This document shows, one piece after another, positions 11,584 through 64,000 of a stretch of DNA of 64,000 bases. The notes below the pieces were generated by a model. That model ran no database searches, was not told the DNA's origin, and saw only the letters and a list, made by a program, of their open reading frames with translations. Positions within the stretch are counted from its first letter, which is position 1, and every line of letters starts with the position of its first letter. The translations under genes were made by a program, and so were the position numbers. The stretch comes from Trichobilharzia szidati (Eukaryota > Platyhelminthes > Trematoda > Strigeidida > Schistosomatidae). Location: assembly GCA_944472155.2 (NCBI GenBank), contig OX235271.1, positions 41,714,633 to 41,778,632 on the forward strand, read 5' to 3'.

Positions 11584-13490
11584 TCATAGGGATATTAGAA
11601 TCTTCCAGATGTTCAGGGAAGGTATTGAATCATTCTCGTTGCAAATATTTTCAGATGATTTGATAAATAAAGCTTCCGTTATGAATCTCTCCCTCGAACC
11701 TGTTATATTAGATTTTAATACTATCACTTTGTTCCACCCTATTGTATGGTTGTGTGTAACTGTATATACTGCTATAGGTGAGCTATTTTCTACATTTCTT
11801 ATCTTATTAGGGTCAACTGACCTCGATTTCGCTAGGTTTTTGTGCTCCGCTAATCTGAATGACCCAGTGCTTTTACTTGAACCTGACATTAATTGCAGGG
11901 TCCCAGATAAACTAAGTTGTTTTGTTTAATTGGCTCCACAAGACCCTTTAACCGATGAAGCTCATTTCTCATTAAGTTTGTGGGTAGTCTGAGTCGTCCT
12001 TTTATTCCTGCATTGTTAAGAATTCTACTTAAGGTTTCAGAGGCTCCTTTCCTGTATGGAAGCACTACTGATGTTTGAAATTACCTGTCGTTTGTGTTAT
12101 CATCTATCTGTGTATTATTGTTTTGCATGTCGTCCTTATTACCATTAATTTCATTTCCCTACATAATTCCTGATTAATATGTCAAGCTAATTATTAAATT
12201 TCAAGGTTCCTCTTATATGCTTCACTTCCTGTCTTAGATTTTCCTTGTTACTATTTAGTTTTTTGCCCTATTACTTAAACATTTCACCAATCCTATTGTT
12301 ACTGACATAGTGTGGGATGGGCCGAAACCCAAATATCGGTTTGAATGTGTGGATTTTCTGTACACACTAGTGTTCAAATTCTCATCTTCTTTCCTTTTTA
12401 TGCTACAATCTAACATTAGAAGATCCTCTTCATGACTTTCCGGTTTATAAGTGAATTGCATTGCCTCTACTTTTGAGTTGATGTGTTCGAAAACCTATTC
12501 ATATATTGTGCCTTTAGTACTGTGAATGTGTCGTCTACATACCTCCACTATTCTTTGTGAGTAGGACTGGACGTTTCAATCACAGAGCGTCTTCATTTAC
12601 CCATTAATATATCTGCCACTGTTAGGGATATAGGCTATCCCCTGGGAACTCCCTGAGTTTGTTTGTATATTTTGCCTTATCATTTAAATACTATGGAAGT
12701 CAGGCATAGCTGCAATCCCAGCATGATGTCTTCTTGTAGCACTCTGCTCCTAAATTCGGGTTCTCGGTCAGAAATGAGTTCGTTTCTGACCACTTCTATA
12801 GCCCACATCTATCCGGATTCACGTATATAAATTGATGTCGATGCTATCTAATTTTAGACTGTCTAATGTGTTTTAGTTCATAAGACGTAGACAGTCTAGA
12901 TTTTGAGCAGCCTTTAACTGGATTTGATACCATGGCGGAATATTTTGAACAGTTCACAAGTAGGGGAATTTCTGAAATTATCTATGGATCTAATGGAGCA
13001 TCCTGACTTATGAACTCTAACATTACCATATATCCTGCCGGGACAATTAGTTTCGGGCATCAAACTAAGCCATTTAGACTCATCTGGAAACGGCCCCTTT
13101 GGTATATAAGATTCGCTGTGGATTTCTTAATCTTGTTCACGTCTGTTGATCTCTTAATTCCTTCATACGATCCTGTTTGTATGTGAGTATTAACCTTCTC
13201 CAAATAGTCTGATTTGTCTAATACCATTTGTATCACTTCTATCTGACTTAGTAGTTACTATATCTTTGTTACTCTTAAGGTTTTTAGACATTCTATTTCT
13301 GATTTCAACAAATTACAGATTTCACTCTTTTTTGTCGTTTATTGTCAGCCAGCTCGTACTTCATCTGCAGTTGTTTTATCTAGCCCATTTAGTGCTATTT
13401 CTATTGTTGAGATTACATCCTCGGGTTTCAGCTTGTCTACTGCTACAATGAAATCTCCAATGCACTTATTTCATCACTTGTCCAGGACAT
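11584..13490 (-). pseudogene. decayed Penelope-like element, second lineage (left arm)
   Basis: Minus-strand reading in shifting frames gives, in order: RIYGNVRVHKSGCSIRSID and NSPTCELFKI (RT core), QTQGVPRG, RRYVDDTFTVLKA (catalytic YVDD), and MQFTYKPESHEEDLLMLDCS with YRKSTHSNRYLGF (12461-12255). Next comes a connection with GIKRRLKPPTNLMRNELHRL. The endonuclease C-terminus includes AVYTVTHNHTIGWNKVIVL and RERFITEALFIK (11889-11584). The THSNRYL motif points to a PLE lineage different from PLE1/PLE2. Many stops and frameshifts show it is dead. The left end lies outside the inverted repeat, so this copy shows the complete 3' end. Confidence 0.8.
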
Positions 13491-14046
13491 TTGGCAAGTC
13501 CCACGCCACCACCCTCTCGACGAATGGGAAGGAATAATAAGCACTAAAAACTCAAGTTTCGAGACAGTGCACTTCCAATTTAGGTGGTTATATTCAATAA
13601 GTAAATGAATATGGAATTACATAATACCACAGTGCCTATGTCAAACAATTTAAAGTCGTCCGTTTTTTAGGTTCCCCTCTCCTGGTAACGACAGTAATGG
13701 TTTCGCGTCCTGAATTGTCTAGTATTGTTTAGGGATAGTTGTTAGGTCACGACCTCATCCGTCTCCATAGTTGTTGTGTAATTTACCTAATGTTTGTCAT
13801 TCTAGTCTTCTGGTTGACAAGACAGTAGGATATAGTTCGTGGGCATTCCGATTTGATTTACACTTCGCGCTCACTAGTCACTCATCAGTGAGATGTTTCT
13901 CCAATTCATAGAACCCTGTATTTATTCAGGTTCTTCAACTTTTAATGTTTAATGTGGGAGTCAAAGCTCTTGCTATCTGACTACTGCAACCGGACTGTAC
14001 TTAATCTAGTGAGAACGTTGCAGGCTTGATCGTGCATCTTCGTCTA
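13491..14046. other. no gene seen (mirror 61870-62425)
   Basis: Shared by both arms, with no recognised coding sequence or repeat. It precedes the RTE insertion. Confidence 0.5.
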
Positions 14047-14061
14047 CCATAAGGCACCCAC

Positions 14062-16334
14062 CCCCAGCTCGATCAGGAAACTAAGTCCCTATTTGAGGAA
14101 GAACTAGCTAAACACATATCTGAGTTCGATAGCTGCGCTCACCCTGAAGAAGCCTGGAAGAATATTCAGTCAGCCATAGATACAGCTGTGAATAAGGTAA
14201 ATCCAAAGGTGAGTAAAAACCATTGGATTTCGACTGCCTCATCCGAACTGATAGATGCTACAAGACTTATTCCGGCGAGCTCCGAATTCAATGAGGAGCG
14301 AAAGCTGCACAAAAGGAAACTTACAAAAAGTCTCCGCAAGGACCGTGAACATTGGTGGTTGACAAAGGCGAAAGAGATGGAAAAAGCATCGGCGATAGGC
14401 AACTCTTTAGACTGATCAGGGAAACGGGTGGGAGAAGGCAAATCATAAGTGAGACTATTTCTGAGAAAAATGGCTCCTTAATTAGCTCTCAGGATAGACG
14501 CCTTGAACCCTGGAAAGAACAATTTAACTTGCCTACAGCCACACTGAGCCTCCCCGCCATCCAGCACACACTCGAATGGGACATAGACACTGGCCCGCCG
14601 TCTGTAAGTGAGGTCACAAAAGCTATCTGTAATCTGAAACAAGGCAAAGCGGCAGGACCCAACGGAATTATTCCGGAGGTGTTTAAATATGGGGGTGACA
14701 TACTAGTATATAGTCTAACTAAGGTACTAGGTAACGTCTGGGAATCAGAGACGGTTCCATCAGATTGAGGTAAGTCACTTATTATACCAATATTCAAGAA
14801 GGGAGACAAGTCCTCATGTGATAATCATAGAGGAATCAGCCTGACGAACATAGTCTCTAAAATCCTAGGCTCAGTAATCATGCACAGACTAAGCCGAACT
14901 CGGGAGGAACAAACGAGGGAAAATCAAGCGGGCTTTAGGCCAGGTAGAGGGTGCATAGATCATATCTTCACTCTCCGACAGATCCTAGAACATAGACACA
15001 CTTTTAGGCGTCCAACAATTGCCATATTTCTTGACTTGAAGGCGGCCCTCGACTCCGTGGATCGAGAGGTACTATGGCAATGTTTGACTGTGAAGGGAGT
15101 GCCAAGAAAATACATTGCACTAATCAAGGCACTCTACTCAAACTCACGTAGCCATGTAAGGGCTTATGGGGAATTGTCATCTGAATTGATAACAACCAGT
15201 GGTGTCCGTCAAGGATGTCCACTTTCCCCTTTTCTGTTTAACTTCATCATAGATATGCTAATGGAAGTATCCTTAACTGAACTTAACGACTTGGGAATCG
15301 ACTTGTTACCAGGGAATAGTCTTATGGACTTAGAATATGCAGACGACATAGTTCTGTTAGGGGAGGACGCTGACAAAATGCAAAGTCTTCTAAACACCTT
15401 GAGCAGCAATCTTCATATGTTTGGCATGCGATTCGCCCCTGTAAAATGTAAGATGCTGCTACAGGACTGGACTATGTCAACTCCTAGCTTAGTGATAGGG
15501 AGTGAAGTGATAGAACATGTTGACCACTTCACCTATTTGGGAAGTTGTATCAGCACCAACGGATTGATTGGTGACGAAATCACAGCACGGATCCAAAAAG
15601 CTCGGGCTGCTTTCGCTAACTTACACCGTCTCTGGCGTAGGCGTGACATCCGGCTATCAACCAAGGTACGTGTGTACTGCTCAGCAGTTCGCTCCGTCCT
15701 TCTCTATGGCGGTGAGACGTGGCCATTGAGAGCGGAAGACATGAAGAGATTGTCTGTTTTTGACCACAGATGTTTACGATCTCTTTCTCGCGTTAGGTGG
15801 TATAATAAGGTAAGTAATGTTGACGTTAGGCGTACAGTGTTGGGCAAAGAGGGAAAATCAATCGAAGAGGCTATAAAATTACATAGATTGAGATGGCTAG
15901 GTCACGTGCTGCGCATGCCTAGCCATCGCCTCCTCCGACGGGCATTACTAGCTAATATAGGTGCAGGTTGGAAAAGAGTAAGTGGTGGCCAAACAAAAAC
16001 ATGGCATCAATCCATGAAATCCCTGACAGTTAAACTGAGTCAGGTAGGGAGATGCAAACTTCCGGGTTGGGGCCCTCAGGACTCTAAGAATCAATGGCTG
16101 GAGACACTAGGTGACATGGCTCAAAATCGTTGTCAATGGCTTACGCAGATGTATTCAGTCTCTGTAATCTTTCATATTCCTTTCTATCATTACTCATTCT
16201 GTTTCACTCTTACACCTCTCAAAACTCTACTGATTCTCTTGACTCATTTTCTTGTCTACCTTTGTGTGTTCTTTGGAACGTGGCAACTCAAACTGCTGCA
16301 CTTCGGTGCCAAGTTCTATGTTGAATCCAGCCAG
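14062..16334 (+). mobile_element. RTE-clade LINE (SR2-like), 5'-truncated, left arm
   Basis: A frame from about 14065 (LFEEELAKHISEFDSCAHPE) shifts near 14350-14400 into one running to TAA at 16340. That frame is interrupted once, by TGA at 14766-14768 where a Trp is expected (SETVPSD-stop-GKSLIIPIFKKGD). RT motifs are GKAAGPNGIIPEVFKYGG, NQAGFRPGRGCIDHIFTLRQ, FLDLKAALDSVDRE, GVRQGCPLSPFLFN and catalytic LEYADDIVLL. The C-terminal region has FTYLGSCIST, VRSVLLYGGETW, RCLRSLSRVRWYNK and [12 protein letters not shown], all typical of RTE elements. The apurinic endonuclease domain is missing by truncation. A 15 bp direct repeat, CCATAAGGCACCCAC, lies at 14047-14061 and 16335-16349 and probably is the target-site duplication. 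The element is non-functional because of the stop and the frameshift. Confidence 0.9.
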
Positions 16335-16466
16335 CCATAAGGCACCCACACTACCCACTATCCGACTGACATATTAGGCACCGAATTAGTGTTTACGTCG
16401 AAACTGACATTTCCGGACTGTCGTGTGACAGAATTCTACACTAGGAGGTAGAAACCAAAGAATATC

Positions 16467-16646
16467 GGTGGTTAGGACTCTCGCCAACCATCCACATGGT
16501 CCGGGGTTCGATCCCCCACCGACGCACATCCGATATCTATGGTCGGCCTGCAAAATTTGGGCTACCGATATCCATGCTGAAAATGCCATACTTGTACTGA
16601 AAATACGATGTGGCATCAAGCTGTAATCAAAAATAAAAAATAAGTT
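16467..16646 (+). mobile_element. tRNA-derived SINE, copy 1 (left arm)
   Basis: A tRNA-like head (GGTGGTTAGGACTCTCGCC, then GGGGTTCGATCCCCC as B box) is followed by a conserved body (CCTGCAAAATTTGGGCTACC) and an A-rich tail (AAAAATAAAAAATAAG). The A box region lacks the CACAG present in the copies at 26527 and 35496, so the internal promoter is probably damaged. Confidence 0.75.
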
Positions 16647-16649
16647 TAC

Positions 16650-17850
16650 TGATTAGTGCAACTGACACGCTTCTACTCACAGTAACAATTGGTGTTACGG
16701 AACAAGTTACCACAAATAGCCACAGTGAAGGAATTAAAGGTGGTGTTTATCTGCTCCATTACGCACTGATACATTGATCAACAGAGTAGGATTGGTAACG
16801 TTTATAATGGTCTGATTGATCTGGTGACCTCTTGGTTATCCGACACAGTTAACATCTCTACTCAGCCACCTGCATGCATAATATTATATGAGCTGACTGC
16901 GTTTCAGGCGCGAGAGGACGTGAACAATGCAGTGACATCAAACCAAGATGTATACCAATGGGCAATTACAAACATAACGAGCTCCTACTGAAGAATTGAA
17001 CTGCGCAATCCATTGAACCGTGGCTCATTTTGTCAACTGTTTATGACAAACTAAAGCAGATCATGTTTTGGAGACCAACTACAACCACTCGGATATCCGA
17101 TAGGCTGTCATCCGGAGACTTAGTTTTCTAGAATAAATAAGGGGCGAAGACATTGCAGCCCGAGGGAAGGACCTAGTCAGCTCGTGCACGAGGAACGAAA
17201 CTTATACCTGCACATACCAGGTACATGGCAAGCACATTAAGACGTCAACAAATGGTACATTGACGAGACACAGAGCGAACCAAATGACTTCTGAACAACC
17301 TATTTCCACAATGAATGACGAAAACAAACACGGACCATGTGACGATCCAGCCTGGGCTTTCACACTATACTACGGCTTCTGCATAAGGAAAATTTCCTAC
17401 GCTAACCAAAGTGGAGATTTAGAGTCAGTGTGAGTCTAACAACCAGTTTCCATAATGCTAAATGACCAAATACGTTATTCGCACTCCGATGGCCTACTAA
17501 AACCTAAGTAGTGCACCACCCAAACACATGCCGCTCACTTGTGATATGATAAGCACTTCCTGCTGATAAAGCTAGCAGCTAAGTCCGTAGTCTTGTATTT
17601 AGGAAATAGGGGATAGTGAGCTCATATTAGCTCCAATCGACGTTGGGCTGTACACAAGTTTCCTTGAGTGAAATCGCTATGCAGGATTTGCTCTTAATGA
17701 CCACAGTCAGCATATCGATGACTATTTAAGACTGTAGTAAACCTAAATAGCATTGGGCCCGTTAAGCGTTTGAACAGTCAGTATACATTGTGAACAAACA
17801 CGCATGTGGGGCACTATTAGATGTGAACACAATAAGCACACCAATCAAAA
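16650..17850. other. no gene seen (mirror about 58066-59265)
   Basis: Present in both arms. No coding sequence or known repeat is recognised. It lies downstream of the small gene's polyadenylation signal on the minus strand. Confidence 0.5.
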
Positions 17851-17852
17851 AA

Positions 17853-18569
17853 TTTATTGAACACAATGATCATACAGACTACAGTTCGCATATATAACTC
17901 CGATGCATTTCTGATTGCCTGCTGCAAGTCACGTTTAGTTCATTGATAACATGCGTACATCACGTAGTTGTCCAAAGTGTACTAAAAGTGGAAGAAACGA
18001 GCCATTAGAGAAAGTCAAGTAAAAAGTGAATCAGGAGACTACTAGATACATCTCGTCTCAGACGGGGAAAGATGTTTCATCATTACTTACCTTTTAACTT
18101 CCATGTGAATCAATTTAAGAATACAGCTAATTCGTCCATCGTTAAGCTTTCCATTCATAGTATCACCAACTTTCAGAGAGCTGAAAATAAGTAGGAGAAT
18201 GTAGTCCAGTGAACGAAGTTTTAGAATATGAGGTCAGTTAATACATGCATACATCTCGTCTCAGACGGGGAAAGATGTCTCATCATTGTTTACCTTTTCG
18301 TCACCATCACATTTCTCTCATGTGAATAGATTCTGAAGTTAAGCTAAGGCGCTCATCGTCAACCTTCTCGTTCAAAGTATCACCAGGTCTTGCAACTTTC
18401 AATGAGCTGAAATTAATTAAAAAATTCGTTTGAATGGACGGTACATTGAAGGGATCAGTTAATACATGCATACATCTCGTCTCAGACGGGGAAAGATGTC
18501 TCATCACAAAAAGAACTACACTCACCTTGATCTCATCTGTTCCTTGGCGCTCACCAACGGAGTAACAAC
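17853..18569 (-). pseudogene. 3' end of a small multi-exon gene with a duplicated exon (left arm)
   Basis: Exons on the minus strand are A 18526-18569, B 18294-18406, C 18091-18180 and D 17960-17981 (stop). AATAAA lies at 17853-17858. Each exon has TTTCAG- or GCAG-type acceptors and GTGAGT, GTAAAC or GTAAGT-like donors. B and C are diverged duplicates: SLKVARPGDTLNEKVDDERL versus SLKVGDTMNGKLNDGRI. Splicing A-C-D stays open (VVTPLVSAKEQMRSS, SLKVGDTMNGK..., ending TLWTTT-stop). Including B gives an early stop after IHMREM. The upstream gene body is not identified and I do not recognise the family. It may be a living alternative-splicing gene end or a pseudogene. Confidence 0.55.
18045..18506 (-). 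repeat. three intronic hairpin motifs after 5' splice sites (left arm)
   Basis: Copies at about 18457-18506, 18236-18285 and 18045-18082 share TGATGAGACATCTTTCCCCG followed by TCTGAGACGAGATGT. It can fold as an ACATCT/AGATGT stem with an inner CGTC-TGA-GACG hairpin and a 5 nt bulge. Each begins 8-19 bases after an exon's donor site. The core is nearly identical between copies while the adjoining exons B and C have diverged. Confidence 0.7.
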
Positions 18570-21560
18570 CTGCAACAGGAAATACTATTTAGTTCAACTC
18601 AACTCAGATTACTAAAGAGGCATTCATTGCTACAAGACCGAACCGTAAGAATACCGTAAATACACGTATTTATTGAGAGGGGGAAAGCCTACTGTTTGTA
18701 CGGATGCGTTTGGGTTTTGACAACTTTATGTCCAACCGTCACACATCCCTTTAATGATAGCTCAAGTTTACACCTACTTGACCTCACCAAAGTAGGTAAG
18801 ATTGTGAGCGACGAAGGGGATTACATGGTAATTCAAACGGCCAATGAGTCATGGTCCGTAAATGCTCAGTGAGCCACATCCTCATCACTGTATTCTCACC
18901 TCGGTGCCTAGCCAACATGTCTGGAATTGTAAAGCTACAGAACATCCACGTGACGTAGGTCAACTAGACTTCGGCACATACTTAAACAAAACTCTTGCAC
19001 AATGTCCAATGTAAATTCATTTGGTACAATTGACAATATATATGTTTCTTGAATTCCTACTCAGTGTTCATTTGAATTATTCTCTCCATGGAAAACGTCA
19101 AAAGTATTCACTTCATAATGATGCCCAAAAGGAAAAGAAACTAGTGTAAACATTCACCCTATCTATTATTTCATAGCACTTATATTCTAGAAGAAGAATG
19201 AAAGTCTTCTAAATGCAAATCCTGTGTGACTCAATATATCCATTAGTTCCCTGTCCTACTAATGATCACGGAATATGATGGTGCTGAAACACCAGTCGAT
19301 TGCGAATTAGTCTTTCCTTCTTAAATTACACGACTCGGAGATGAAATTCCCTATTGCTTGTCAGAGTTGCAAGGGATCAAAGAAAGACATGGATCCGATG
19401 GAGTTGGGAATATTTCACCGTTAATGACTAACATGTTTACTTTCGATACTGAAGTTCACACAGTGGTCATGAACCAAAGCCAGTTCCTGAAGAAGCAGTT
19501 ACTTGATAGTTTCATTGTCCTGCAGTATAGTATTCCTGCATTTCGCATCGTCTAATGTACTGTAGCCGTAAATCCTCGCCATTTGGTACTCCGTCTTGTC
19601 ACGTGCGTGCACGATCACTAGCCAGCTAAGCATTCACTTCAGCCCGCGATTTGGTCCAGAAATATATATCGTACTTTGGACGACTAAATCTGGTCTTTTG
19701 CTTTGTCTTTGGTACTCGAAGAGCGAACACTATAGAAGTTGTTGATATAAGATCTTGCGTTAGTATACTCCGTACAATTCGTGAACGTCGATACCTTCAA
19801 CCTCCAAAGTACCTAGACACAGAAGCAGACTTAATAACAGGTTCTCATAAATGTTAAACTGTAAACCATTTACCAAGGTCACCATCAAAGTTGATCGACA
19901 ACCCAAACTCCGTTCCGTTTCCTGCTGATCGTTATGGTCAACCAGTGAACAGCGTATATCTGGGTGAGTGCTATGCCGCCACGTGATTGAACGCTATTTC
20001 AGGAAGAGGAGAAAATTCTGCGCAGCTGCAAAATGGTATAAAATGCGATTATGAACAATACACTATTGGAAGTATATTTACGAGATAAATACAAGGAGAG
20101 GAAGCTATATAGTACTTGAAATGATAGTTTACATTTGCAATGTTTAATGCTAACCATATTGGTCTAAGCATGGAAACTGTCACGTTTCCGATGAAAATAT
20201 AGCTTTGTTCAAACATTAGTATCGTTGTGTTTTTAATCAAAGCAACCAGACTTAAAGCAAGCAACAAATGTGAATAAAGAGCAAGTTTCAGCTTCAATAA
20301 ATTCCTAGGTAGTTAAGATCAGATGGAGTATAATAGTACGCAAATAAAAAGATTAGTGTGAGGTAGGTAAGTGATATTTAAGTGAGGAGTGAATTCAAAG
20401 ATCTGGAAGATTAGAAGCCATAGAACAAGCTGACCTGTAAGATGCCTCACGAATTTCTGTAGGGCCCAATGGGTAGCATCTTGACAAGAAGCTGAACAGG
20501 CTTGTAGATAGTAGGAGCCAAAGCACCTTTCTTATTTATGATTAGATCTGTACAACCCTTATTATTTTTTTGTTGAGGGTCCAGACTAATATTTAATTCT
20601 CGAGCTGTCAAAAAATGCATGTTGGGTAGAGCTAATGAGTTAACCAGTTGCATCGACAAGATGCAATTTAACCAGGACATGTGACTGTTTATCGATTGAT
20701 AATGCCATTATCATTTGAGGTCGAATGTACGATCTCACAGTCCCTCTCGCCACAGGTGCTACATAGGTACTGGCAACTGTCAGGGAAAGGTTTTGGATAT
20801 TACAGGGAATTGTAACAATCAGAAATGTCATCGGAAATTGTATGCGGTGTAGAGGGAGAAATGCTAGGTGAGAGCACCAGCTGTTAGCACCCATTTCGAT
20901 GGCCACTGTCGAGATGGACGCCTATTTACCTCCTCACTAGGTGCTGAGTATTTCCGGCCAACAGCAGCGACAATAGGCAGAAGACATGAAAAACGCTATG
21001 GGATTCCAGTGTAACGACAGAAGGCAAGAGTCAGGCAACAGACCATTTATTAAGGAAATCAACGCATATTTATACATGTTTTCATGTACATTACTATGGA
21101 TATGTGAACAAACAAACAGTCTTCCGATTGGTTGTTTCTCACGACAAATCTTGGGAACGTAAATATTGACGTAAATTACTGTCTACCAATTTGGCTAGTA
21201 AACAGCTCTCACCACACCGGTAGTGCTAGTGTGAGTCGTGGTGACCAACGTCAGTACATAATCGTTAAGTGCGTGCGTGTTATGCAAGAGCTGCTTGCGT
21301 AAGTGTTGGGAGTGCACATAGTTTGTTGGTGAACTTCTTCTTTCCATTCAGTGTTAAGCACCCGGGTGAATGCTGTATAATCACTTACCCTGATGGCTGA
21401 AAATTACTGTAAATATTATCTTATTCCCTGTCTGGAAAACAAACTAACATTCTTATTGTAGGTGATGTTATGCCGAGTATTATTAATAATAATTTATATT
21501 TCGTATAAAAACTAAAGTATCTGAACCACACACAACAACTGACTTTGCTGATGTCGAAAA
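18570..21560. other. unassigned shared segment, partly repeated elsewhere
   Basis: It mirrors 54357-57347. No gene is supported. Minus-strand 20300-20700 and 19990-20300 have diverged copies on the plus strand at about 50620-50900 and 51035-51330, and a short piece (ATCTGTACAACCCTTA, CTCGAGCT) recurs at 26412-26480. This is therefore dispersed repeat DNA. The hydrophobic 82-residue frame at 20049-20297 is conserved only between the arms, and its counterpart at 51043-51270 has changed, so I do not call it a gene. Confidence 0.5.
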
Positions 21561-21586
21561 TCCGAATCTGGTTGTTTACACTGAGA

Positions 21587-22577
21587 TCAGCGGAATTCCA
21601 TACTGATTTCGAAGTAATAAAGGTCTGCCTTACTTTTCCAATCCTGGCTGTTACTTACGTCCTCGTCCGTGCCACCGCATGTAGTTGAAATAATGCTGTT
21701 AAGGTAGGTGAAAGAGACGACTTCCTCCAGTTTTCCCTCGCTGATTACGGTTGGTGCTTGTTGTTGTGGGTTAGGTTTCTTCTTCACCCCTATCTTCCAT
21801 ATGTTCACTGGAAGTTCTCCCTCTGACACCTCTTCCACCATTTCGTTGTCTTCCAACTGCTGATCTTAGGAGGAGGGTGAAATTAGACGCAAATCATCTG
21901 CAGAGTACATATCTTCTATTGTCTTCCTGTCAATCCAAAGTATTCCCGTCCCCCAGCTCTTCACAGCTTGCTCCGATTCACCACAATTAAGAATCTCATC
22001 GGCAGTAGTAAGGTGCCCTGCCTCAATTCTGTCTTCACTTTAAAAGCTTCACTGAGACTTCTGCTGTGGATAACCTGGCCTCTGACATCACCATACACCT
22101 GCTGAATGTAGTCTATAAAGGTTTGAGGCAGTTTCCAGAGCGACTAACGACCGACTATATCAAAGTCCTACCCAAAGTCAAAACGGCAAACCTATGTTTT
22201 GCCCTCGATAAATTGAGCTTGTTACAAGTGGAGTTTCGCATCCAGTACGTCTTTTAGTCGCTCCGATATGCAGCGAATTGTTTTTTGCTTGAGGTGGAGA
22301 GAAGTATTATCACACGCCAGCTCTATTAAAGGCATAAGCCGACTTTATTCAGGAGTTTTACAAAGTAGCTCTTCTTTCAATTCTCAAGTATTTCCCTAGG
22401 TCTGAAGACCCTGTGTAGCAGCGACGTGACCATATACGCCGATGTTTCTAGATCTGATTAGGATGATTCTGGGGAAATTGCATCTGGTCCTGGTGTTTCC
22501 CTAGCTTGCTTTGACTGTAGCATTCAAGGCTCCTATCTCTATCGGAGAACCGGCGTTCACTGACAGCTCTGTCGCTC
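21587..22577 (-). pseudogene. RTE-like LINE relic (left arm)
   Basis: Minus-strand pieces in shifting frames read TPGPDAISPE, KLPQTFIDYIQQVYGD, VIHSRSLSEAFKVKT and VVSFTYLNSIISTTCGGTD. They resemble the same regions of the RTE at 961-2291 (VIHNGKLSEAFRVNIGVRQG, SSTYLGNIVSTTGGTD). It is heavily broken by stops and an internal deletion. The mirror lies at 53340-54330 with the same damage. Confidence 0.7.
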
Positions 22578-23589
22578 TTAATGTTAATGTTAATAGAATA
22601 TACAATAAAAATTAAGCCAAATCACGGGTGGCTAGTAGTTAGGGAATGCAGATGGACGGAACGAACAACAAAGTTGTTACTTCTAATATTTGTACCTTTA
22701 GAAGCTAAAGCTGCACTTTACATACCATTCTGCATTCTGTGTTAATTAGACCGTTTGCAGTCCACTGGACCATTGTACATTTTTGTTTGAATGTGCACTA
22801 TTGTCGGCTGCGAACCATTTTGTGTCCAGCCATTGTGTTCATAGTGTTTGGATAGCGGACAACCTCACATATGAAGGTTCGTACCATGTTTATCCTACAC
22901 ATTTTGTTTAATAAAACAATAATCTTTCCGTTCTTCAACAGTCTGTTATCAACATAATTCTATTTGGAATCATTTAGTTTCGTTTTGGATTTCGGTCGAA
23001 GACTGCAATTCCGTTTCTTCGGAGCGTTATTCATGCTGTAGAAATTATACCCTTCTCTTGCTCTTTTGGACGCTGGCGAGTGGTGAATGTCCCCGCCCTG
23101 TGGGTTTGGCTAGGTAGCCTGCTTTAGTCTCTTACCAGTGTGCTTTCGAGACAGGAGTTCAAAATAAACTGCTCGCTTCTATTCTCATTTGCGCTATCTG
23201 TCGGTGATTTTGTTATTGATTTTGATGCGAGAATCTAGTACTCAATCGTCGGACTCAAGTCATTCAGAAGTCCTCTTCTTTCATTGTAGTTGACTTTTTA
23301 TTATAATTTTGATCTTATTCAGCGTTTGACATCTTCTGGTTTTCCAGACATTCTATAGCCGCTCCCAGATCTAGTTAGTGATCAGGGATTTCAGGAGGAT
23401 GAGATGAGTAACAAAGTAGGAACCAAGGTTTTTCATAATTTGCATGGCTATCTTCACCAGTTGAACAATGGATGTCCACCCGTGTATCTGACTTGGTTCC
23501 TCTTCACTTGCTCACTGCCGTGCTTCCGAAGGTAAGCGTCTAGAAACCACTCGTTAAAGTATGAAAATGTCTTGTAAAACCATAGTCAG
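22578..23589. other. no gene seen; contains the empty site of the gypsy insertion
   Basis: Around 22840-22850 this arm reads straight through the position where the right arm carries the gypsy element (41816-53072). No coding sequence is recognised. Confidence 0.6.
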
Positions 23590-45672: not shown

Positions 45673-45676
45673 GTTC

Positions 45677-50550: not shown

Positions 50551-50559
50551 GGGTGGCGC

Positions 50560-52480: not shown

Positions 52481-52484
52481 TTCT

Positions 52485-52964: not shown

Positions 52965-53072
52965 ACAGAAGTCCAAAAATTATATACATGTAGATACAAA
53001 GAGCTAGGCTATTACAGTTCAGCGTCCACCGGTTTTTGAACTGACGCTTCCTTTCAAATTTGAACCACTACA
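52965..53072 (-). mobile_element. gypsy 5' LTR, outer half
   Basis: It matches 41925-42032. Its right end (ACCACTACA) joins the arm sequence at 53073. Together with 45677-45785 it forms one full LTR once the intervening CR1-derived DNA is left out. Confidence 0.9.
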
Positions 53073-53339
53073 CTAAGAACACAATGGCCGGACACAAAAT
53101 GGTTCGCAGCCGACAATAGTGCACATTCAAACAAAAATGTACAATGGTCCAGTGGACTGCAAACGGTCTAATTAACACAGAATGCAGAATGGTATGTAAA
53201 GTGCAGCTTTAGCTTCTAAAGGTACAAATATTAGAAGTAACAACTTTGTTGTTCGTTCCGTCCATCTGCATTCCCTAACTACTAGCCACCCGTGATTTGG
53301 CTTAATTTTTATTGTATATTCTATTAACATTAACATTAA

Positions 53340-54330
53340 GAGCGACAGAGCTGTCAGTGAACGCCGGTTCTCCGATAGAGATAGGAGCCTTGAATGCTAC
53401 AGTCAAAGCAAGCTAGGGAAACACCAGGACCAGATGCAATTTCCCCAGAATCATCCTAATCAGATCTAGAAACATCGGCGTATATGGTCACGTCGCTGCT
53501 ACACAGGGTCTTCAGACCTAGGGAAATACTTGAGAATTGAAAGAAGAGCTACTTTGTAAAACTCCTGAATAAAGTCGGCTTATGCCTTTAATAGAGCTGG
53601 CGTGTGATAATACTTCTCTCCACCTCAAGCAAAAAACAATTCGCTGCATATCGGAGCGACTAAAAGACGTACTGGATGCGAAACTCCACTTGTAACAAGC
53701 TCAATTTATCGAGGGCAAAACATAGGTTTGCCGTTTTGACTTTGGGTAGGACTTTGATATAGTCGGTCGTTAGTCGCTCTGGAAACTGCCTCAAACCTTT
53801 ATAGACTACATTCAGCAGGTGTATGGTGATGTCAGAGGCCAGGTTATCCACAGCAGAAGTCTCAGTGAAGCTTTTAAAGTGAAGACAGAATTGAGGCAGG
53901 GCACCTTACTACTGCCGATGAGATTCTTAATTGTGGTGAATCGGAGCAAGCTGTGAAGAGCTGGGGGACGGGAATACTTTGGATTGACAGGAAGACAATA
54001 GAAGATATGTACTCTGCAGATGATTTGCGTCTAATTTCACCCTCCTCCTAAGATCAGCAGTTGGAAGACAACGAAATGGTGGAAGAGGTGTCAGAGGGAG
54101 AACTTCCAGTGAACATATGGAAGATAGGGGTGAAGAAGAAACCTAACCCACAACAACAAGCACCAACCGTAATCAGCGAGGGAAAACTGGAGGAAGTCGT
54201 CTCTTTCACCTACCTTAACAGCATTATTTCAACTACATGCGGTGGCACGGACGAGGACGTAAGTAACAGCCAGGATTGGAAAAGTAAGGCAGACCTTTAT
54301 TACTTCGAAATCAGTATGGAATTCCGCTGA
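53340..54330 (+). pseudogene. RTE-like LINE relic (right arm)
   Basis: Mirror of 21587-22577 with the same stops. Pieces such as TPGPDAISPE (about 53415) and VVSFTYLNSIISTTCGGTDE (about 54200) are legible. Confidence 0.7.
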
Positions 54331-54356
54331 TCTCAGTGTAAACAACCAGATTCGGA

Positions 54357-57347
54357 TTTTCGACATCAGCAAAGTCAGTTGTTGTGTGTGGTTCAGATAC
54401 TTTAGTTTTTATACGAAATATAAATTATTATTAATAATACTCGGCATAACATCACCTACAATAAGAATGTTAGTTTGTTTTCCAGACAGGGAATAAGATA
54501 ATATTTACAGTAATTTTCAGCCATCAGGGTAAGTGATTATACAGCATTCACCCGGGTGCTTAACACTGAATGGAAAGAAGAAGTTCACCAACAAACTATG
54601 TGCACTCCCAACACTTACGCAAGCAGCTCTTGCATAACACGCACGCACTTAACGATTATGTACTGACGTTGGTCACCACGACTCACACTAGCACTACCGG
54701 TGTGGTGAGAGCTGTTTACTAGCCAAATTGGTAGACAGTAATTTACGTCAATATTTGCGTTCCCAAGATTTGTCGTGAGAAACAACCAATCGGAAGACTG
54801 TTTGTTTGTTCACATATCCATAGTAATGTACATGAAAACATGTATAAATATGCGTTGATTTCCTTAATAAATGGTCTGTTGCCTGACTCTTGCCTTCTGT
54901 CGTTACACTGGAATCCCATAGCGTTTTTCATGTCTTCTGCCTATTGTCGCTGCTGTTGGCCGGAAATACTCAGCACCTAGTGAGGAGGTAAATAGGCGTC
55001 CATCTCGACAGTGGCCATCGAAATGGGTGCTAACAGCTGGTGCTCTCACCTAGCATTTCTCCCTCTACACCGCATACAATTTCCGATGACATTTCTGATT
55101 GTTACAATTCCCTGTAATATCCAAAACCTTTCCCTGACAGTTGCCAGTACCTATGTAGCACCTGTGGCGAGAGGGACTGTGAGATCGTACATTCGACCTC
55201 AAATGATAATGGCATTATCAATCGATAAACAGTCACATGTCCTGGTTAAATTGCATCTTGTCGATGCAACTGGTTAACTCATTAGCTCTACCCAACATGC
55301 ATTTTTTGACAGCTCGAGAATTAAATATTAGTCTGGACCCTCAACAAAAAAATAATAAGGGTTGTACAGATCTAATCATAAATAAGAAAGGTGCTTTGGC
55401 TCCTACTATCTACAAGCCTGTTCAGCTTCTTGTCAAGATGCTACCCATTGGGCCCTACAGAAATTCGTGAGGCATCTTACAGGTCAGCTTGTTCTATGGC
55501 TTCTAATCTTCCAGATCTTTGAATTCACTCCTCACTTAAATATCACTTACCTACCTCACACTAATCTTTTTATTTGCGTACTATTATACTCCATCTGATC
55601 TTAACTACCTAGGAATTTATTGAAGCTGAAACTTGCTCTTTATTCACATTTGTTGCTTGCTTTAAGTCTGGTTGCTTTGATTAAAAACACAACGATACTA
55701 ATGTTTGAACAAAGCTATATTTTCATCGGAAACGTGACAGTTTCCATGCTTAGACCAATATGGTTAGCATTAAACATTGCAAATGTAAACTATCATTTCA
55801 AGTACTATATAGCTTCCTCTCCTTGTATTTATCTCGTAAATATACTTCCAATAGTGTATTGTTCATAATCGCATTTTATACCATTTTGCAGCTGCGCAGA
55901 ATTTTCTCCTCTTCCTGAAATAGCGTTCAATCACGTGGCGGCATAGCACTCACCCAGATATACGCTGTTCACTGGTTGACCATAACGATCAGCAGGAAAC
56001 GGAACGAAGTTTGGGTTGTCGATCAACTTTGATGGTGACCTTGGTAAATGGTTTACAGTTTAACATTTATGAGAACCTGTTATTAAGTCTGCTTCTGTGT
56101 CTAGGTACTTTGGAGGTTGAAGGTATCGACGTTCACGAATTGTACGGAGTATACTAACGCAAGATCTTATATCAACAACTTCTATAGTGTTCGCTCTTCG
56201 AGTACCAAAGACAAAGCAAAAGACCAGATTTAGTCGTCCAAAGTACGATATATATTTCTGGACCAAATCGCGGGCTGAAGTGAATGCTTAGCTGGCTAGT
56301 GATCGTGCACGCACGTGACAAGACGGAGTACCAAATGGCGAGGATTTACGGCTACAGTACATTAGACGATGCGAAATGCAGGAATACTATACTGCAGGAC
56401 AATGAAACTATCAAGTAACTGCTTCTTCAGGAACTGGCTTTGGTTCGTGACCACTGTGTGAACTTCAGTATCGAAAGTAAACATGTTAGTCATTAACGGT
56501 GAAATATTCCCAACTCCATCGGATCCATGTCTTTCTTTGATCCCTTGCAACTCTGACAAGCAATAGGGAATTTCATCTCCGAGTCGTGTAATTTAAGAAG
56601 GAAAGACTAATTCGCAATCGACTGGTGTTTCAGCACCATCATATTCCGTGATCATTAGTAGGACAGGGAACTAATGGATATATTGAGTCACACAGGATTT
56701 GCATTTAGAAGACTTTCATTCTTCTTCTAGAATATAAGTGCTATGAAATAATAGATAGGGTGAATGTTTACACTAGTTTCTTTTCCTTTTGGGCATCATT
56801 ATGAAGTGAATACTTTTGACGTTTTCCATGGAGAGAATAATTCAAATGAACACTGAGTAGGAATTCAAGAAACATATATATTGTCAATTGTACCAAATGA
56901 ATTTACATTGGACATTGTGCAAGAGTTTTGTTTAAGTATGTGCCGAAGTCTAGTTGACCTACGTCACGTGGATGTTCTGTAGCTTTACAATTCCAGACAT
57001 GTTGGCTAGGCACCGAGGTGAGAATACAGTGATGAGGATGTGGCTCACTGAGCATTTACGGACCATGACTCATTGGCCGTTTGAATTACCATGTAATCCC
57101 CTTCGTCGCTCACAATCTTACCTACTTTGGTGAGGTCAAGTAGGTGTAAACTTGAGCTATCATTAAAGGGATGTGTGACGGTTGGACATAAAGTTGTCAA
57201 AACCCAAACGCATCCGTACAAACAGTAGGCTTTCCCCCTCTCAATAAATACGTGTATTTACGGTATTCTTACGGTTCGGTCTTGTAGCAATGAATGCCTC
57301 TTTAGTAATCTGAGTTGAGTTGAACTAAATAGTATTTCCTGTTGCAG
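54357..57347. other. unassigned shared segment (right arm)
   Basis: Mirror of 18570-21560. No gene is supported. The part at 55240-55990 is repeated with divergence at 50560-51400. Confidence 0.5.
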
Positions 57348-58064
57348 GTTGTTACTCCGTTGGTGAGCGCCAAGGAACAGATGAGATCAAGGTGAGTGTA
57401 GTTCTTTTTGTGATGAGACATCTTTCCCCGTCTGAGACGAGATGTATGCATGTATTAACTGATCCCTTCAATGTACCGTCCATTCAAACGAATTTTTTAA
57501 TTAATTTCAGCTCATTGAAAGTTGCAAGACCTGGTGATACTTTGAACGAGAAGGTTGACGATGAGCGCCTTAGCTTAACTTCAGAATCTATTCACATGAG
57601 AGAAATGTGATGGTGACGAAAAGGTAAACAATGATGAGACATCTTTCCCCGTCTGAGACGAGATGTATGCATGTATTAACTGACCTCATATTCTAAAACT
57701 TCGTTCACTGGACTACATTCTCCTACTCATTTTCAGCTCTCTGAAAGTTGGTGATACTATGAATGGAAAGCTTAACGATGGACGAATTAGCTGTATTCTT
57801 AAATTGATTCACATGGAAGTTAAAAGGTAAGCAATGATGAAACATCTTTCCCCGTCTGAGACGAGATGTATCTAGTAGTCTCCTGATTCACTTTTTACTT
57901 GACTTTCTCTAATGGCTCGTTTCTTCCACTTTTAGTACACTTTGGACAACTACGTGATGTACGCATGTTATCAATGAACTAAACGTGACTTGCAGCAGGC
58001 AATCAGAAATGCATCGGAGTTATATATGCGAACTGTAGTCTGTATGATCATTGTGTTCAATAAA
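57348..58064 (+). pseudogene. 3' end of a small multi-exon gene with a duplicated exon (right arm)
   Basis: Exon A is 57348-57391 (acceptor CCTGTTGCAG, donor GTGAGT). Exon B is 57511-57623 (acceptor TTAATTTCAG, donor GTAAAC). Exon C is 57737-57826 (acceptor CATTTTCAG, donor GTAAGC). Exon D starts at 57936 (acceptor CCACTTTTAG), with TGA at 57955-57957 and AATAAA at 58059-58064. Phases fit A-C-D, giving an open end of about 52 residues. B carries an in-frame TGA and its length (113 bp) breaks the phase. B and C share LKV..GDT.N.K..D.R.S, so one arose by duplication. The product is unknown. The exon structure is the same in both arms, so neither arm has lost it since duplication. Confidence 0.55.
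57411..57872 (+). repeat. three intronic hairpin motifs after 5' splice sites (right arm)
   Basis: Copies begin at 57411, 57632 and 57835, respectively 19, 8 and 8 bases into the introns after exons A, B and C. The first two are alike for about 50 bases (TGATGAGACATCTTTCCCCG to ATGTATTAACTGA). The third has one core change (TGATGAAAC) and ends after GAGATGTAT. The motif also reads as an open stretch (MRHLSPSETRCMHVLT), but the splice layout favours an intronic role. Confidence 0.7.
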
Positions 58065-58065
58065 T

Positions 58066-59265
58066 TTTTTGATTGGTGTGCTTATTGTGTTCACATCTAA
58101 TAGTGCCCCACATGCGTGTTTGTTCACAATGTATACTGACTGTTCAAACGCTTAACGGGCCCAATGCTATTTAAGTTTACTACAGTCCTAAATAGTCATC
58201 GATATGCTGACTGGTCATTAAGAGCAAATCCTACATAGCGATTTCACTCAAGGAAACTTGTGTACAGCCCAACGTCGATTGGAGCTAATATGAGCTCACT
58301 ATCCCCTATTTCCTAAATACAAGACTACGGACGTAGCTGCTAGCTTTATCAGCAGGAAGTGCTTATCATCTCACAAGTGAGCGGCATGTGTTTGGGTGGT
58401 GCACTACTTAGGTTTTAGTAGGCCATCGGAGTGCGAATAACGTATTTGGTCATTTGGCATTATGGAAACTGGTTGTTAGACTCACACTGACTCTAAATCT
58501 CCACTTTGGTTAGCGTAGGAAATTTTCCTTATGCAGAAGCCGTAGTATAGTGTGAAAGCCCAGGCTGGATCGTCACATGGTCCGTGTTTGTTTTCGTCAT
58601 TCATTGTGGAAATAGGTTGTTCAGAAGTCATTTGGTTCGCTCTGTGTCTCGTCAATGTACCATTTGTTGACGTCTTAATGTGCTTGCCATGTACCTGGTA
58701 TGTGCAGGTATAAGTTTCGTTCCTCGTGCACGAGCTGACTAGGTCCTTCCCTCGGGCTGCAATGTCTTCGCCCCTTATTTATTCTAGAAAACTAAGTCTC
58801 CGGATGACAGCCTATCGGATATCCGAGTGGTTGTAGTTGGTCTCCAAAACATGATCTGCTTTAGTTTGTCATAAACAGTTGACAAAACGAGCCACGGTTT
58901 AATGGATTGCGCAGTTCAATTCTTCAGTAGGAGCTCGTTATGTTTGTAATTGCCCATTGGTATACATCTTGGTTTGATGTCACTGCATTGTTCACGTCCT
59001 CTCGCGCCTGAAACGCAGTCAGCTCATATAATATTATGCATGCAGGTGGCTGAGTAGAGATGTTAACTGTGTCGGATAACCAAGAGGTCACCAGATCAAT
59101 CAGACCATTATAAACGTTACCAATCCTACTCTGTTGATCAATGTATCAGTGCGTAATGGAGCAGATAAACACCACCTTTAATTCCTTCACTGTGGCTATT
59201 TGTGGTAACTTGTTCCGTAACACCAATTGTTACTGTGAGTAGAAGCGTGTCAGTTGCACTAATCA
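58066..59265. other. no gene seen (mirror of 16650-17850)
   Basis: Shared by both arms, no recognised coding or repeat sequence. Confidence 0.5.
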
Positions 59266-59268
59266 GTA

Positions 59269-59448
59269 AACTTATTTTTTATTTTTGATTACAGCTTGAT
59301 GCCACATCGTATTTTCAGTACAAGTATGGCATTTTCAGCATGGATATCGGTAGCCCAAATTTTGCAGGCCGACCATAGATATCGGATGTGCGTCGGTGGG
59401 GGATCGAACCCCGGACCATGTGGATGGTTGGCGAGAGTCCTAACCACC
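59269..59448 (-). mobile_element. tRNA-derived SINE, mirror of copy 1
   Basis: Reverse complement of 16467-16646, with the same missing CACAG in the A box region. Confidence 0.75.
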
Positions 59449-59580
59449 GATATTCTTTGGTTTCTACCTCCTAGTGTAGAATTCTGTCACACGACAGTCC
59501 GGAAATGTCAGTTTCGACGTAAACACTAATTCGGTGCCTAATATGTCAGTCGGATAGTGGGTAGTGTGGGTGCCTTATGG

Positions 59581-61854
59581 CTGGCTGGATTCAACATAGA
59601 ACTTGGCACCGAAGTGCAGCAGTTTGAGTTGCCACGTTCCAAAGAACACACAAAGGTAGACAAGAAAATGAGTGAAGAGAATCAATAGAGTTTTGACAAG
59701 TATAAGAGTGAAACAGAATGAGTAATGGTAGAAAGGAATATGAAAGATTACAGAGACTGAATACATCTGCGTAAGCCATTGACAACGATTTTGAGCCATG
59801 TCACCTATTGTCTCCAGCCATTGATTCTTAGAGTCCCGAGGGCCCCAACCCGGAAGTTTGCATCTCCCTACCTGACTCAGTTTAACTGTCAGGGATTTCA
59901 TGGATTGATGCCATGTTTTTGTTTGGCCACCACTTACTCTTTTCCAACCTGCACCTATATCAGCTAGTAATGCCCGTCGGGGGAGGCGATGGCTAGGCAT
60001 GCGCAGCACGTGACCTAGCCATCTCAATCTATGTAACTTTATAGCCTCTTCGATTGATTTTCCCTCTTTGCCCAACACTCTACGCCTAACGTCAACATTA
60101 CTTACCTTATTATACCACCTAACGCGAGAAAGAGATCGTAAACATCTGTGGTCAAAAACAGACAATCTCTTCATGTCTTCCGCTCTCAATGGCCACGTCT
60201 CACCGCCATAGAGAAGGACGGAGCGAACTGCTGAGCAGTACACACGTCCCTTGGTTGATAGCCGGATGTCACGCCTACGCCAGAGACGGTGTAAGTTAGC
60301 GAAAGCAGCCCGAGCTTTTTGGATCCGTGCTGAGATTTCGTCACCAATCAATCCGTTGGTGCTGATACAACTTCCCAAATAGGTGAAGTGGTCAACATGT
60401 TCTATCACTTCACTCCCTATCACTAAGCTAGGAGTTGACATAGTCCAGTCCTGTAGCAGCATCTTACATTTTACAGGGGCGAATCGCATGCCAAACATAT
60501 GAAGATTGCTGCTCAAGGTGTTTAGAAGACTCTGCATTTTGTCAGCATCCTCCCCTAACAGGACTATGTCATCTGCATATTCTAAGTCCATAAGACTATT
60601 CCCTGGTAACAAGTCGATTCCTAAGTCGTTAAGTTCAGTTAAGGATACTTCCATTAGCATATCTATGATGAAGTTAAACAGAAAAGGGGAAAGTGGACAT
60701 CCTTGACGGACACCACTGGTTGTTATCAATTCAGATGACAATTCCCCATAAGCCCTTACATGGCTACGTGAGTTTGAGTAGAGTGCCTTGATTAGTGCAA
60801 TGTATTTTCTTGGCACTCCCTTCACAGTCAAACATTGCCATAGTACCTCTCGATCCACGGAGTCGAGGGCCGCCTTCAAGTCAAGAAATATGGCAATTGT
60901 TGGACGCCTAAAAGTGTGTCTATGTTCTAGGATCTGTCGGAGAGTGAAGATATGATCTATGCACCCTCTACCTGGCCTAAAGCCCGCTTGATTTTCCCTC
61001 GTTTGTTCCTCCCGAGTTCGGCTTAGTCTGTGCATGATTACTGAGCCTAGGATTTTAGAGACTATGTTCGTCAGGCTGATTCCTCTATGATTATCACATG
61101 AGGACTTGTCTCCCTTCTTGAATATTGGTATAATAAGTGACTTACCTCAATCTGATGGAACCGTCTCTGATTCCCAGACGTTACCTAGTACCTTAGTTAG
61201 ACTATATACTAGTATGTCACCCCCATATTTAAACACCTCCGGAATAATTCCGTTGGGTCCTGCCGCTTTGCCTTGTTTCAGATTACAGATAGCTTTTGTG
61301 ACCTCACTTACAGACGGCGGGCCAGTGTCTATGTCCCATTCGAGTGTGTGCTGGATGGCGAGGAGGCTCAGTGTGGCTGTAGGCAAGTTAAATTGTTCTT
61401 TCCAGGGTTCAAGGCGTCTATCCTGAGAGCTAATTAAGGAGCCATTTTTCTCAGAAATAGTCTCACTTATGATTTGCCTTCTCCCACCCGTTTCCCTGAT
61501 CAGTCTAAAGAGTTGCCTATCGCCGATGCTTTTTCCATCTCTTTCGCCTTTGTCAACCACCAATGTTCACGGTCCTTGCGGAGACTTTTTGTAAGTTTCC
61601 TTTTGTGCAGCTTTCGCTCCTCATTGAATTCGGAGCTCGCCGGAATAAGTCTTGTAGCATCTATCAGTTCGGATGAGGCAGTCGAAATCCAATGGTTTTT
61701 TACTCACCTTTGGATTTACCTTATTCACAGCTGTATCTATGGCTGACTGAATATTCTTCCAGGCTTCTTCAGGGTGAGCGCAGCTATCGAACTCAGATAT
61801 GTGTTTAGCTAGTTCTTCCTCAAATAGGGACTTAGTTTCCTGATCGAGCTGGGG
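59581..61854 (-). mobile_element. RTE-clade LINE (SR2-like), right arm copy
   Basis: Mirror of 14062-16334 with the same frameshift and the same TGA in place of Trp. The 486-codon part (61035-59575) differs from the left copy at about ten residues, including ISARIQ for ITARIQ, STKGRVYC for STKVRVYC and LADIGA for LANIGA. The catalytic LEYADDIVLL is present. The 15 bp flanking repeat is present as GTGGGTGCCTTATGG at both ends. Confidence 0.9.
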
Positions 61855-61869
61855 GTGGGTGCCTTATGG

Positions 61870-62425
61870 TAGACGAAGATGCACGATCAAGCCTGCAACG
61901 TTCTCACTAGATTAAGTACAGTCCGGTTGCAGTAGTCAGATAGCAAGAGCTTTGACTCCCACATTAAACATTAAAAGTTGAAGAACCTGAATAAATACAG
62001 GGTTCTATGAATTGGAGAAACATCTCACTGATGAGTGACTAGTGAGCGCGAAGTGTAAATCAAATCGGAATGCCCACGAACTATATCCTACTGTCTTGTC
62101 AACCAGAAGACTAGAATGACAAACATTAGGTAAATTACACAACAACTATGGAGACGGATGAGGTCGTGACCTAACAACTATCCCTAAACAATACTAGACA
62201 ATTCAGGACGCGAAACCATTACTGTCGTTACCAGGAGAGGGGAACCTAAAAAACGGACGACTTTAAATTGTTTGACATAGGCACTGTGGTATTATGTAAT
62301 TCCATATTCATTTACTTATTGAATATAACCACCTAAATTGGAAGTGCACTGTCTCGAAACTTGAGTTTTTAGTGCTTATTATTCCTTCCCATTCGTCGAG
62401 AGGGTGGTGGCGTGGGACTTGCCAA
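61870..62425. other. no gene seen (mirror of 13491-14046)
   Basis: Shared arm sequence without recognised features. Confidence 0.5.
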
Positions 62426-64000
62426 ATGTCCTGGACAAGTGATGAAATAAGTGCATTGGAGATTTCATTGTAGCAGTAGACAAGCTGAAACCCGAGGATG
62501 TAATCTCAACAATAGAAATAGCACTAAATGGGCTAGATAAAACAACTGCAGATGAAGTACGAGCTGGCTGACAATAAACGACAAAAAAGAGTGAAATCTG
62601 TAATTTGTTGAAATCAGAAATAGAATGTCTAAAAACCTTAAGAGTAACAAAGATATAGTAACTACTAAGTCAGATAGAAGTGATACAAATGGTATTAGAC
62701 AAATCAGACTATTTGGAGAAGGTTAATACTCACATACAAACAGGATCGTATGAAGGAATTAAGAGATCAACAGACGTGAACAAGATTAAGAAATCCACAG
62801 CGAATCTTATATACCAAAGGGGCCGTTTCCAGATGAGTCTAAATGGCTTAGTTTGATGCCCGAAACTAATTGTCCCGGCAGGATATATGGTAATGTTAGA
62901 GTTCATAAGTCAGGATGCTCCATTAGATCCATAGATAATTTCAGAAATTCCCCTACTTGTGAACTGTTCAAAATATTCCGCCATGGTATCAAATCCAGTT
63001 AAAGGCTGCTCAAAATCTAGACTGTCTACGTCTTATGAACTAAAACACATTAGACAGTCTAAAATTAGATAGCATCGACATCAATTTATATACGTGAATC
63101 CGGATAGATGTGGGCTATAGAAGTGGTCAGAAACGAACTCATTTCTGACCGAGAACCCGAATTTAGGAGCAGAGTGCTACAAGAAGACATCATGCTGGGA
63201 TTGCAGCTATGCCTGACTTCCATAGTATTTAAATGATAAGGCAAAATATACAAACAAACTCAGGGAGTTCCCAGGGGATAGCCTATATCCCTAACAGTGG
63301 CAGATATATTAATGGGTAAATGAAGACGCTCTGTGATTGAAACGTCCAGTCCTACTCACAAAGAATAGTGGAGGTATGTAGACGACACATTCACAGTACT
63401 AAAGGCACAATATATGAATAGGTTTTCGAACACATCAACTCAAAAGTAGAGGCAATGCAATTCACTTATAAACCGGAAAGTCATGAAGAGGATCTTCTAA
63501 TGTTAGATTGTAGCATAAAAAGGAAAGAAGATGAGAATTTGAACACTAGTGTGTACAGAAAATCCACACATTCAAACCGATATTTGGGTTTCGGCCCATC
63601 CCACACTATGTCAGTAACAATAGGATTGGTGAAATGTTTAAGTAATAGGGCAAAAAACTAAATAGTAACAAGGAAAATCTAAGACAGGAAGTGAAGCATA
63701 TAAGAGGAACCTTGAAATTTAATAATTAGCTTGACATATTAATCAGGAATTATGTAGGGAAATGAAATTAATGGTAATAAGGACGACATGCAAAACAATA
63801 ATACACAGATAGATGATAACACAAACGACAGGTAATTTCAAACATCAGTAATGCTTCCATACAGGAAAGGAGCCTCTGAAACCTTAAGTAGAATTCTTAA
63901 CAATGCAGGAATAAAAAGACGACTCAAACCACCCACAAACTTAATGAGAAATGAGCTTCATCGGTTAAAGGGTCTTGTGGAGCCAATTAAACAAAACAAC
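62426..64000 (+). pseudogene. decayed Penelope-like element, second lineage (right arm, cut by window end)
   Basis: Mirror of 11916-13490. RRYVDDTFTVLKA is legible at about 63370-63410 and MQFTYKPESHEEDLLMLDCS from 63455. The endonuclease end lies beyond the window. Confidence 0.8.

Follow-up and report, generated by a model that had tools for sequence, protein, structure and literature searches.

Introduction

Long and highly similar inverted arms that surround a central turn and carry signs of gene conversion have been described for the palindrome P6 of the human Y chromosome (PMC3723533) and for the W chromosome of willow (PMC7023750). Outside mammals, old inverted repeats whose arms stay alike are found in Caenorhabditis, where they were kept across species splits and one is broken by an insertion (PMC1803023). 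Our study concerns an arrangement of this kind in a stretch of 64,000 nucleotides, termed the window, from the trematode Trichobilharzia szidati (assembly GCA_944472155.2, contig OX235271.1, positions 41,714,633 to 41,778,632 of the forward strand; all coordinates refer to the window). With modest confidence, we consider it probable that this inverted repeat is a real and old palindrome without recognised genes in a retroelement-rich part of a Trichobilharzia chromosome, whose arms are kept alike by conversion. Schistosomes have ZW sex chromosomes.

The locus differs from the described systems in several respects. It is far smaller than P6, for which 104,230 arm bases were aligned, it contains no recognised host gene in its arms, and their identity is lower than the 99.9% of human Y palindromes (PMC3723533). 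Whereas the Caenorhabditis repeats hold gene pairs, with arms of 2,207 bp at the quoted locus (PMC1803023), each arm in this case exceeds 24 kb and the only domains recognised are those of retroelements. A review of concerted evolution states that conversion of duplicates persists until transposable elements or other large insertions and deletions disrupt pairing (PMC3924837). At the present locus divergence rises next to such insertions, but the blockage appears to be local, extending over tens of bases, while the remainder seems to be still converting. Inverted arms around a turn are also a property of artificial palindromes in amplified DNA and nanopore reads (PMC6218980, PMC12870357); the arms of such artefacts stem from one template and thus contain no arm-specific insertions, which the arms described here do carry. 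Full-text literature searches, judged by titles and the starts of abstracts and with subscription papers mostly outside their reach, listed no earlier description of a palindrome like this for schistosomes. By term search, an article about the sex chromosomes of flatworms (PMC9187692) mentions neither Trichobilharzia nor palindromes. The conversion-kept palindrome is a known kind of structure, of which the schistosome example is most likely a new instance.

Two inverted arms around a single-copy spacer

In a self-blastn comparison of the window, four collinear inverted blocks couple 11916-36420 to 64000-38236, and the E-value is printed as 0.0 for all of them. These blocks pair 14,502 sites of the left arm with 56 differences (0.39%), bearing out a preliminary description of the sequence that had proposed an inverted repeat with at least 14 kb of paired sequence per arm. 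Within the window, which contains no N bases, the left arm extends over 24,505 bp and the right arm over 25,765 bp, and with more than 99% identity they enclose a single-copy spacer of 1,815 bp (36421-38235). Since the outermost pair (11916/64000) includes the last base of the window, the outer arm ends lie beyond view, and the right arm runs on as had been described. Three of the four large size differences that had been mentioned, estimated at 1.07, 8.9 and 11.3 kb, match inserts with measured lengths of 1,061 + 8 bp, 8,928 + 6 bp and 11,257 + 4 bp, the latter numbers referring to an additional target copy; the fourth presumably corresponds to the spacer. The features are:

11916-22847, plus strand: left arm, outer block, pairing with 53070-64000 (minus) at 99.62% over 10,933 columns
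22833-24262, plus strand: left arm, second block, pairing with 40394-41825 (minus) at 99.37%; true pairing 22845-24256
24257-25317, no strand: left-arm-only insertion of 1,061 bp that carries (AAT)n at one of its ends, with a further 8-bp target copy
25318-26383, plus strand: left arm, third block, pairing with 39339-40407 (minus) at 98.97%
26384-35311, plus strand: left-arm-only nest of retroelement sequence, 8,928 bp with a further 6-bp target copy
35312-36420, plus strand: left arm, inner block, pairing with 38236-39344 (minus) at 99.73%; stops 186 bp into a retroelement termed E2
36421-38235, minus strand: single-copy spacer; 36906-38235 continue E2 from the right arm, 36421-36905 are other sequence
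38236-39344, minus strand: right arm, inner block, partner of 35312-36420
39339-40407, minus strand: right arm, third block, partner of 25318-26383; both ends are empty sites of the two left-arm insertions
40394-41825, minus strand: right arm, second block, partner of 22833-24262
41816-53072, minus strand: right-arm-only Ty3/Gypsy-like long terminal repeat (LTR) element, 11,257 bp with a further 4-bp target copy
45785-52963, plus strand: nested retroelement material of about 7.2 kb that splits the outer LTR of the 41816-53072 element, with an endonuclease domain in 46896-47711
53070-64000, minus strand: right arm, outer block, partner of 11916-22847, cut by the window end

For the count of differences, block ends were placed at the target-site copies such that no base was used twice, and multi-base gaps (2 bp at 17702 and 3 bp at 25450) were each scored as one difference. 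A first set of block ends, in which 12 right-arm bases were doubled at joints, had given 56 differences in 14,512 sites. In that set 68 differing columns were printed and nine dropped, of which seven at 22835-22845 reflect the overlap of the second block with the first and two at 24257/24259 lie inside an insert. In the final set, position 35315, located in a second target copy, is excluded and 22845 included, leaving the counts at edges unchanged at 10 of 147. The first ends underlie the dispersion index, the codon differences, the 30- and 50-bp edges, the analysis of 20-bp pieces and the edge trimming.

An old element in one of two similar arms

The history of the repeat is constrained by the element that is found exclusively in the right arm (41816-53072). 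Its properties are those of a Ty3/Gypsy LTR retrotransposon, with LTRs of 217 bp bearing TG...CA ends (TGTAG...TTACA), a target-site duplication and a reverse transcriptase that precedes the integrase. The reverse transcriptase matches Ty3 Gag-Pol (7q5b, E 9e-69) and is followed by the Pfam domains H2C2 and rve, whereas the sole sign of gag is a PNMA match below threshold (24.4 compared to a cut-off of 25). In-frame stops at 43463 and 42986 separate the reverse transcriptase, zinc-binding and integrase domains, and such a broken pol frame is expected of an old copy. Comparison of the two LTRs shows 10 differences in 217 sites (4.6%, 95% confidence interval 2.2-8.3%), whereas 56 of 14,502 are seen between the arms (Fisher test, 4e-8). 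By these figures the insertion appears to be roughly twelve times as old as the difference between the arms. Had the arms simply diverged since the element inserted, they should differ by several percent instead of the observed 0.39%. The plain reading, by which a recent duplication was followed by insertions, was rejected for the same reason, the right-arm element being far older than the arm difference.

The absence of the element from the left arm is unlikely to result from its precise loss, since the left arm resembles an empty site most closely when a target duplication of 4 bp is assumed. The element is flanked by the target copies TTAG and TAAG, which differ at one of four bases, whereas the left arm contains a single ATAG and constitutes a length-exact empty site with 4 mismatches in 31 positions. 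The other eight duplication lengths tried (range 0-8) gave 6 to 17 mismatches out of 27 to 35. The material nested within the element (45785-52963) shows no clear target-site duplication, with none of 9 bp found.

Differences accumulate at the discontinuities

The differences between the arms are not evenly spread. They are overdispersed (index 3.5), and the longest identical run measures 2,148 bp. Of the 147 sites that lie no more than 20 bp from an inner discontinuity, 10 differ (6.8%), compared to 46 of 14,355 elsewhere (0.32%). This excess was matched by none of 20,000 random placements and by 0.055% of circular shifts that preserve the clustering. The result is similar for the first block ends, where the fraction of shifts amounts to 0.062% for edges of 20 bp and to 0.13% and 0.27% when these are widened to 30 and 50 bp. 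It ranges from 0.062 to 0.145% if the edges are trimmed by 3, 5 or 8 bp; the trimming of every edge by 8 bp leaves 6 of 52 differences near edges, with a shift fraction of 0.15%. Among 20-bp pieces, those with two or more differences account for 4 of 7 at edges and 104 of 14,149 elsewhere. When the rate at the edges was compared to that between the LTRs, no difference was detected (p 0.48). In the second block all four differences are located within 22845-22860. Away from the edges, a patch of raised divergence (15293-16241, partner 59674-60622) contains 19 differences and lies inside an open reverse transcriptase frame.

The two left-arm-only insertions, at whose sites the right arm is continuous, differ in their surroundings. 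The shorter one (24257-25317) is bounded by two identical copies of TATATATA (24249-24256 and 25318-25325), and the arms do not differ over 20 bp to either side. This is expected if the insertion, with its two identical target copies, is young. The longer block (26384-35311) is flanked by TACACT (26378-26383) and TACGCT (35312-35317) and contains reverse transcriptase frames at 27016-28155 and 32796-33635. Close to it we observed a retroelement part of 909 bp in three copies (25471-26379, 32002-32910 and 39343-40251), which are 5 to 8 differences apart. The middle copy extends into a reverse transcriptase frame, while those of the arms stop at the joint of the 8.9-kb insert. The copy at 25471-26379 would represent the 5' portion of a retroelement found again at 32002-32910.

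The centre of the repeat

At the centre, E2 runs from the right arm into the spacer (38421 to 36906), with one size difference of 150 bp at 37503-37652, whereas the left arm cuts it at 36420, 186 bp from its start. The start of the element (36235-36420) resembles 45785-45970 at 87% in the self-blastn comparison. Since E2 continues across right arm and spacer and is cut in the left arm, the order found in right arm plus spacer is likely the parental one, and the boundary 36420/36421 would mark the breakpoint of the duplication, as in a fold-back duplication. A special fold at this position was considered and dismissed (z-score 0.03). Within 35318-36420, the arms differ at positions 36405 and 36417 alone, located 15 and 3 bp from the breakpoint, and at both the right arm carries the derived state when judged against the copy of E2 near 45950-45990. 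Two central differences in an otherwise identical block are not expected of an artificial join.

Discussion

The described features are in our judgement best accommodated by an old palindrome with conversion between its arms, although the preference for this reading is a measured one. In such a scenario, a broken or stalled strand reading through E2 probably folded back on itself and began to copy again 186 bp into this element, which would leave E2 cut in the left arm but continuing across the right arm into the larger part of the spacer, around a single-copy turn of 1.8 kb. The arms would later have gained their own insertions; empty sites are observed for all three inserts, while their arrival after the duplication is the presumed timing. 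Gene conversion between the arms would have repeatedly overwritten most of the paired sequence, as suggested by a divergence of 0.32% in arms of which one carries an element of its own with an LTR difference of 4.6%. As conversion tracts would be barred from the unpaired inserts and the spacer, islands of older divergence would persist at those edges. A selected function is not necessary in this scheme, where conversion would be the passive result of two long matching arms located close to each other. The preliminary description had left open whether the near identity reflects recent duplication or ongoing conversion, and in light of LTRs that differ by 4.6% in arms that differ by 0.39% conversion provides the better fit.

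Several observations weigh against this interpretation or restrict its scope. The result at the edges relies on 10 differences and the age of the LTRs on 10 of 217 sites, with the two target copies differing at one of four bases. Moreover, allelic recombination around insertion polymorphisms would likewise produce islands of divergence at edges. In the 909-bp stretch, the right arm shows 5 differences from the third copy but 7 from the left arm, which indicates that arm-to-arm exchange does not dominate there. In the patch at 15293-16241, the right arm agrees with the nearest relative (P0001) at all 10 scorable amino-acid differences, and among 120 listed relatives the commoner state is that of the right arm in 8 of 11 cases, that of the left arm in 1 and tied in 2. 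The changes in this patch show no GC bias (8 vs 7 of 19). Since equal decay of both arms does not account for the skew towards the right arm, a third copy has probably taken part in exchange as well. Exchange between the arms is thus not the sole process, and other copies of the family are likely to contribute.

The main alternative, which we regard as unlikely, yet as a serious possibility, concerns a misassembly, in which a single locus with insertion polymorphisms is represented by both parental haplotypes, misjoined head to head as the two arms via a chimeric or amplified molecule, whereas each chromosome of the organism would carry one arm. Differences of 0.39% and three insertions could well separate two alleles, and amplification is known to create artificial palindromes (PMC6218980). 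However, with a right-arm insertion about 12 times older than the arm difference, this explanation requires a very long-lived polymorphism, and it does not predict two differences among the 16 bp closest to the centre, in an inner block that is otherwise identical from 35318. A misjoin would be expected to lie at a gap or an ambiguous repeat, between arms that differ throughout at the level of the genome's heterozygosity; here divergence climbs at the centre instead of holding its background value, and the window contains no N gap. The frequency of fold-back reads speaks to the same question, as they were virtually nil for PacBio HiFi in one survey that included three PacBio samples, whereas for genomic DNA sequenced on nanopores about 0.55-0.6% were found (PMC12870357), and their bearing on this case depends on the platform used for the assembly. 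A fold-back of a single molecule, either by read-through of both strands or by whole-genome amplification, shares with the locus a single-copy turn between inverted arms but is refuted as sole cause by the 56 substitutions and small indels and the three large insertions that separate the arms, so that its probability is negligible. The preliminary description had thus been correct in holding the structural differences against a fold-back of the same molecule. These differences do not show that an assembly error in general is unlikely, since a join of alleles would also yield insertions and scattered single-nucleotide differences.

We also consider it improbable that the palindrome is real but recent, the product of one inverted duplication that united two different alleles or sister copies, so that the structural differences existed from the start and conversion between the arms is not required. 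The low overall divergence and the identical run of 2,148 bp would be in line with such an origin, as would the old element in a single arm if it was polymorphic at the time of duplication. This would however require a polymorphic insertion with an age corresponding to about 4.6% at a locus differing by about 0.3%, and it does not predict the rising divergence at the inner arm end. Finally, the arms might give rise to kilobases of double-stranded RNA from retroelements across the 1.8-kb turn and so act as a hairpin source against these elements, where double-stranded RNA from reverse transcriptase elements would feed small RNAs and conversion would keep the hairpin paired. In Schistosoma japonicum, retrotransposons are a prominent source of small RNAs bound to Argonaute 2 (PMC3409120). 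To this proposal we assign a very low probability.

If the favoured palindrome with converting arms is real, it constitutes a large palindrome that is kept alike without a recognised gene, and conversion between arms would then depend neither on selection for the rescue of genes nor, perhaps, on linkage to sex. The increase in divergence close to insertions, which is absent at the seemingly youngest one, offers a way to separate old converted from recent palindromes in a single assembly. If the locus is instead a misjoin, it serves as a warning that insertion differences between arms alone cannot authenticate a palindrome.

Coding content and further features

The outer block of the left arm contains an open reverse transcriptase frame of 486 amino acids (14880-16340; RVT_1, E 1.5e-26 in Pfam) that is open in both arms. 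Its product resembles a protein of Trichobilharzia regenti (91% over 92% of its length), whereas a reverse transcriptase inside the 8.9-kb insert resembles a protein of T. szidati (96% over 49%). These proteins point to both species and by themselves assign the window to the avian schistosome genus Trichobilharzia. One T. regenti assembly is named tdTriRege1.1 (PMC13155389). Purifying selection on the paired frame was considered and found to be unsupported, with 8 synonymous and 11 non-synonymous codon differences. Pfam scans, which covered 20 of 44 listed open reading frames and 139 of 194 stop-to-stop frames of at least 60 amino acids outside the right-arm blocks, recovered domains of reverse transcriptase, endonuclease and integrase, a zinc-binding domain and DUF6451, besides weak matches to PNMA (below threshold, E 2.1e-5) and DUF1980 (E 0.0057). 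No host gene was recognised in these scans, which short exons could escape, and the scanned frames thus show no equivalent of the gene-carrying arms of sex-chromosome palindromes. Neither RNA genes nor tRNAs were reported in the window, and its three tandem arrays are small, none being satellite-sized.

Outside the repeat, the region 5858-11191 contains reverse transcriptase frames at 6168-7613 and 8506-10581 amid direct and inverted repeats of 300-540 bp, with 7886-8425 matching 11016-10477 in inverted orientation at 98% (self-blastn). We take this layout to recall Penelope-like elements, a label that is unconfirmed for 8506-10581, as no GIY-YIG domain is listed in three frames. Among the relatives of the reverse transcriptases, several trematode-like sequences are filed publicly as Streptococcus dysgalactiae or Lactococcus garvieae (P0007, P0018, P0019, P0128, P0175, P0248 and P0251), which perhaps reflects animal DNA contaminating bacterial assemblies.

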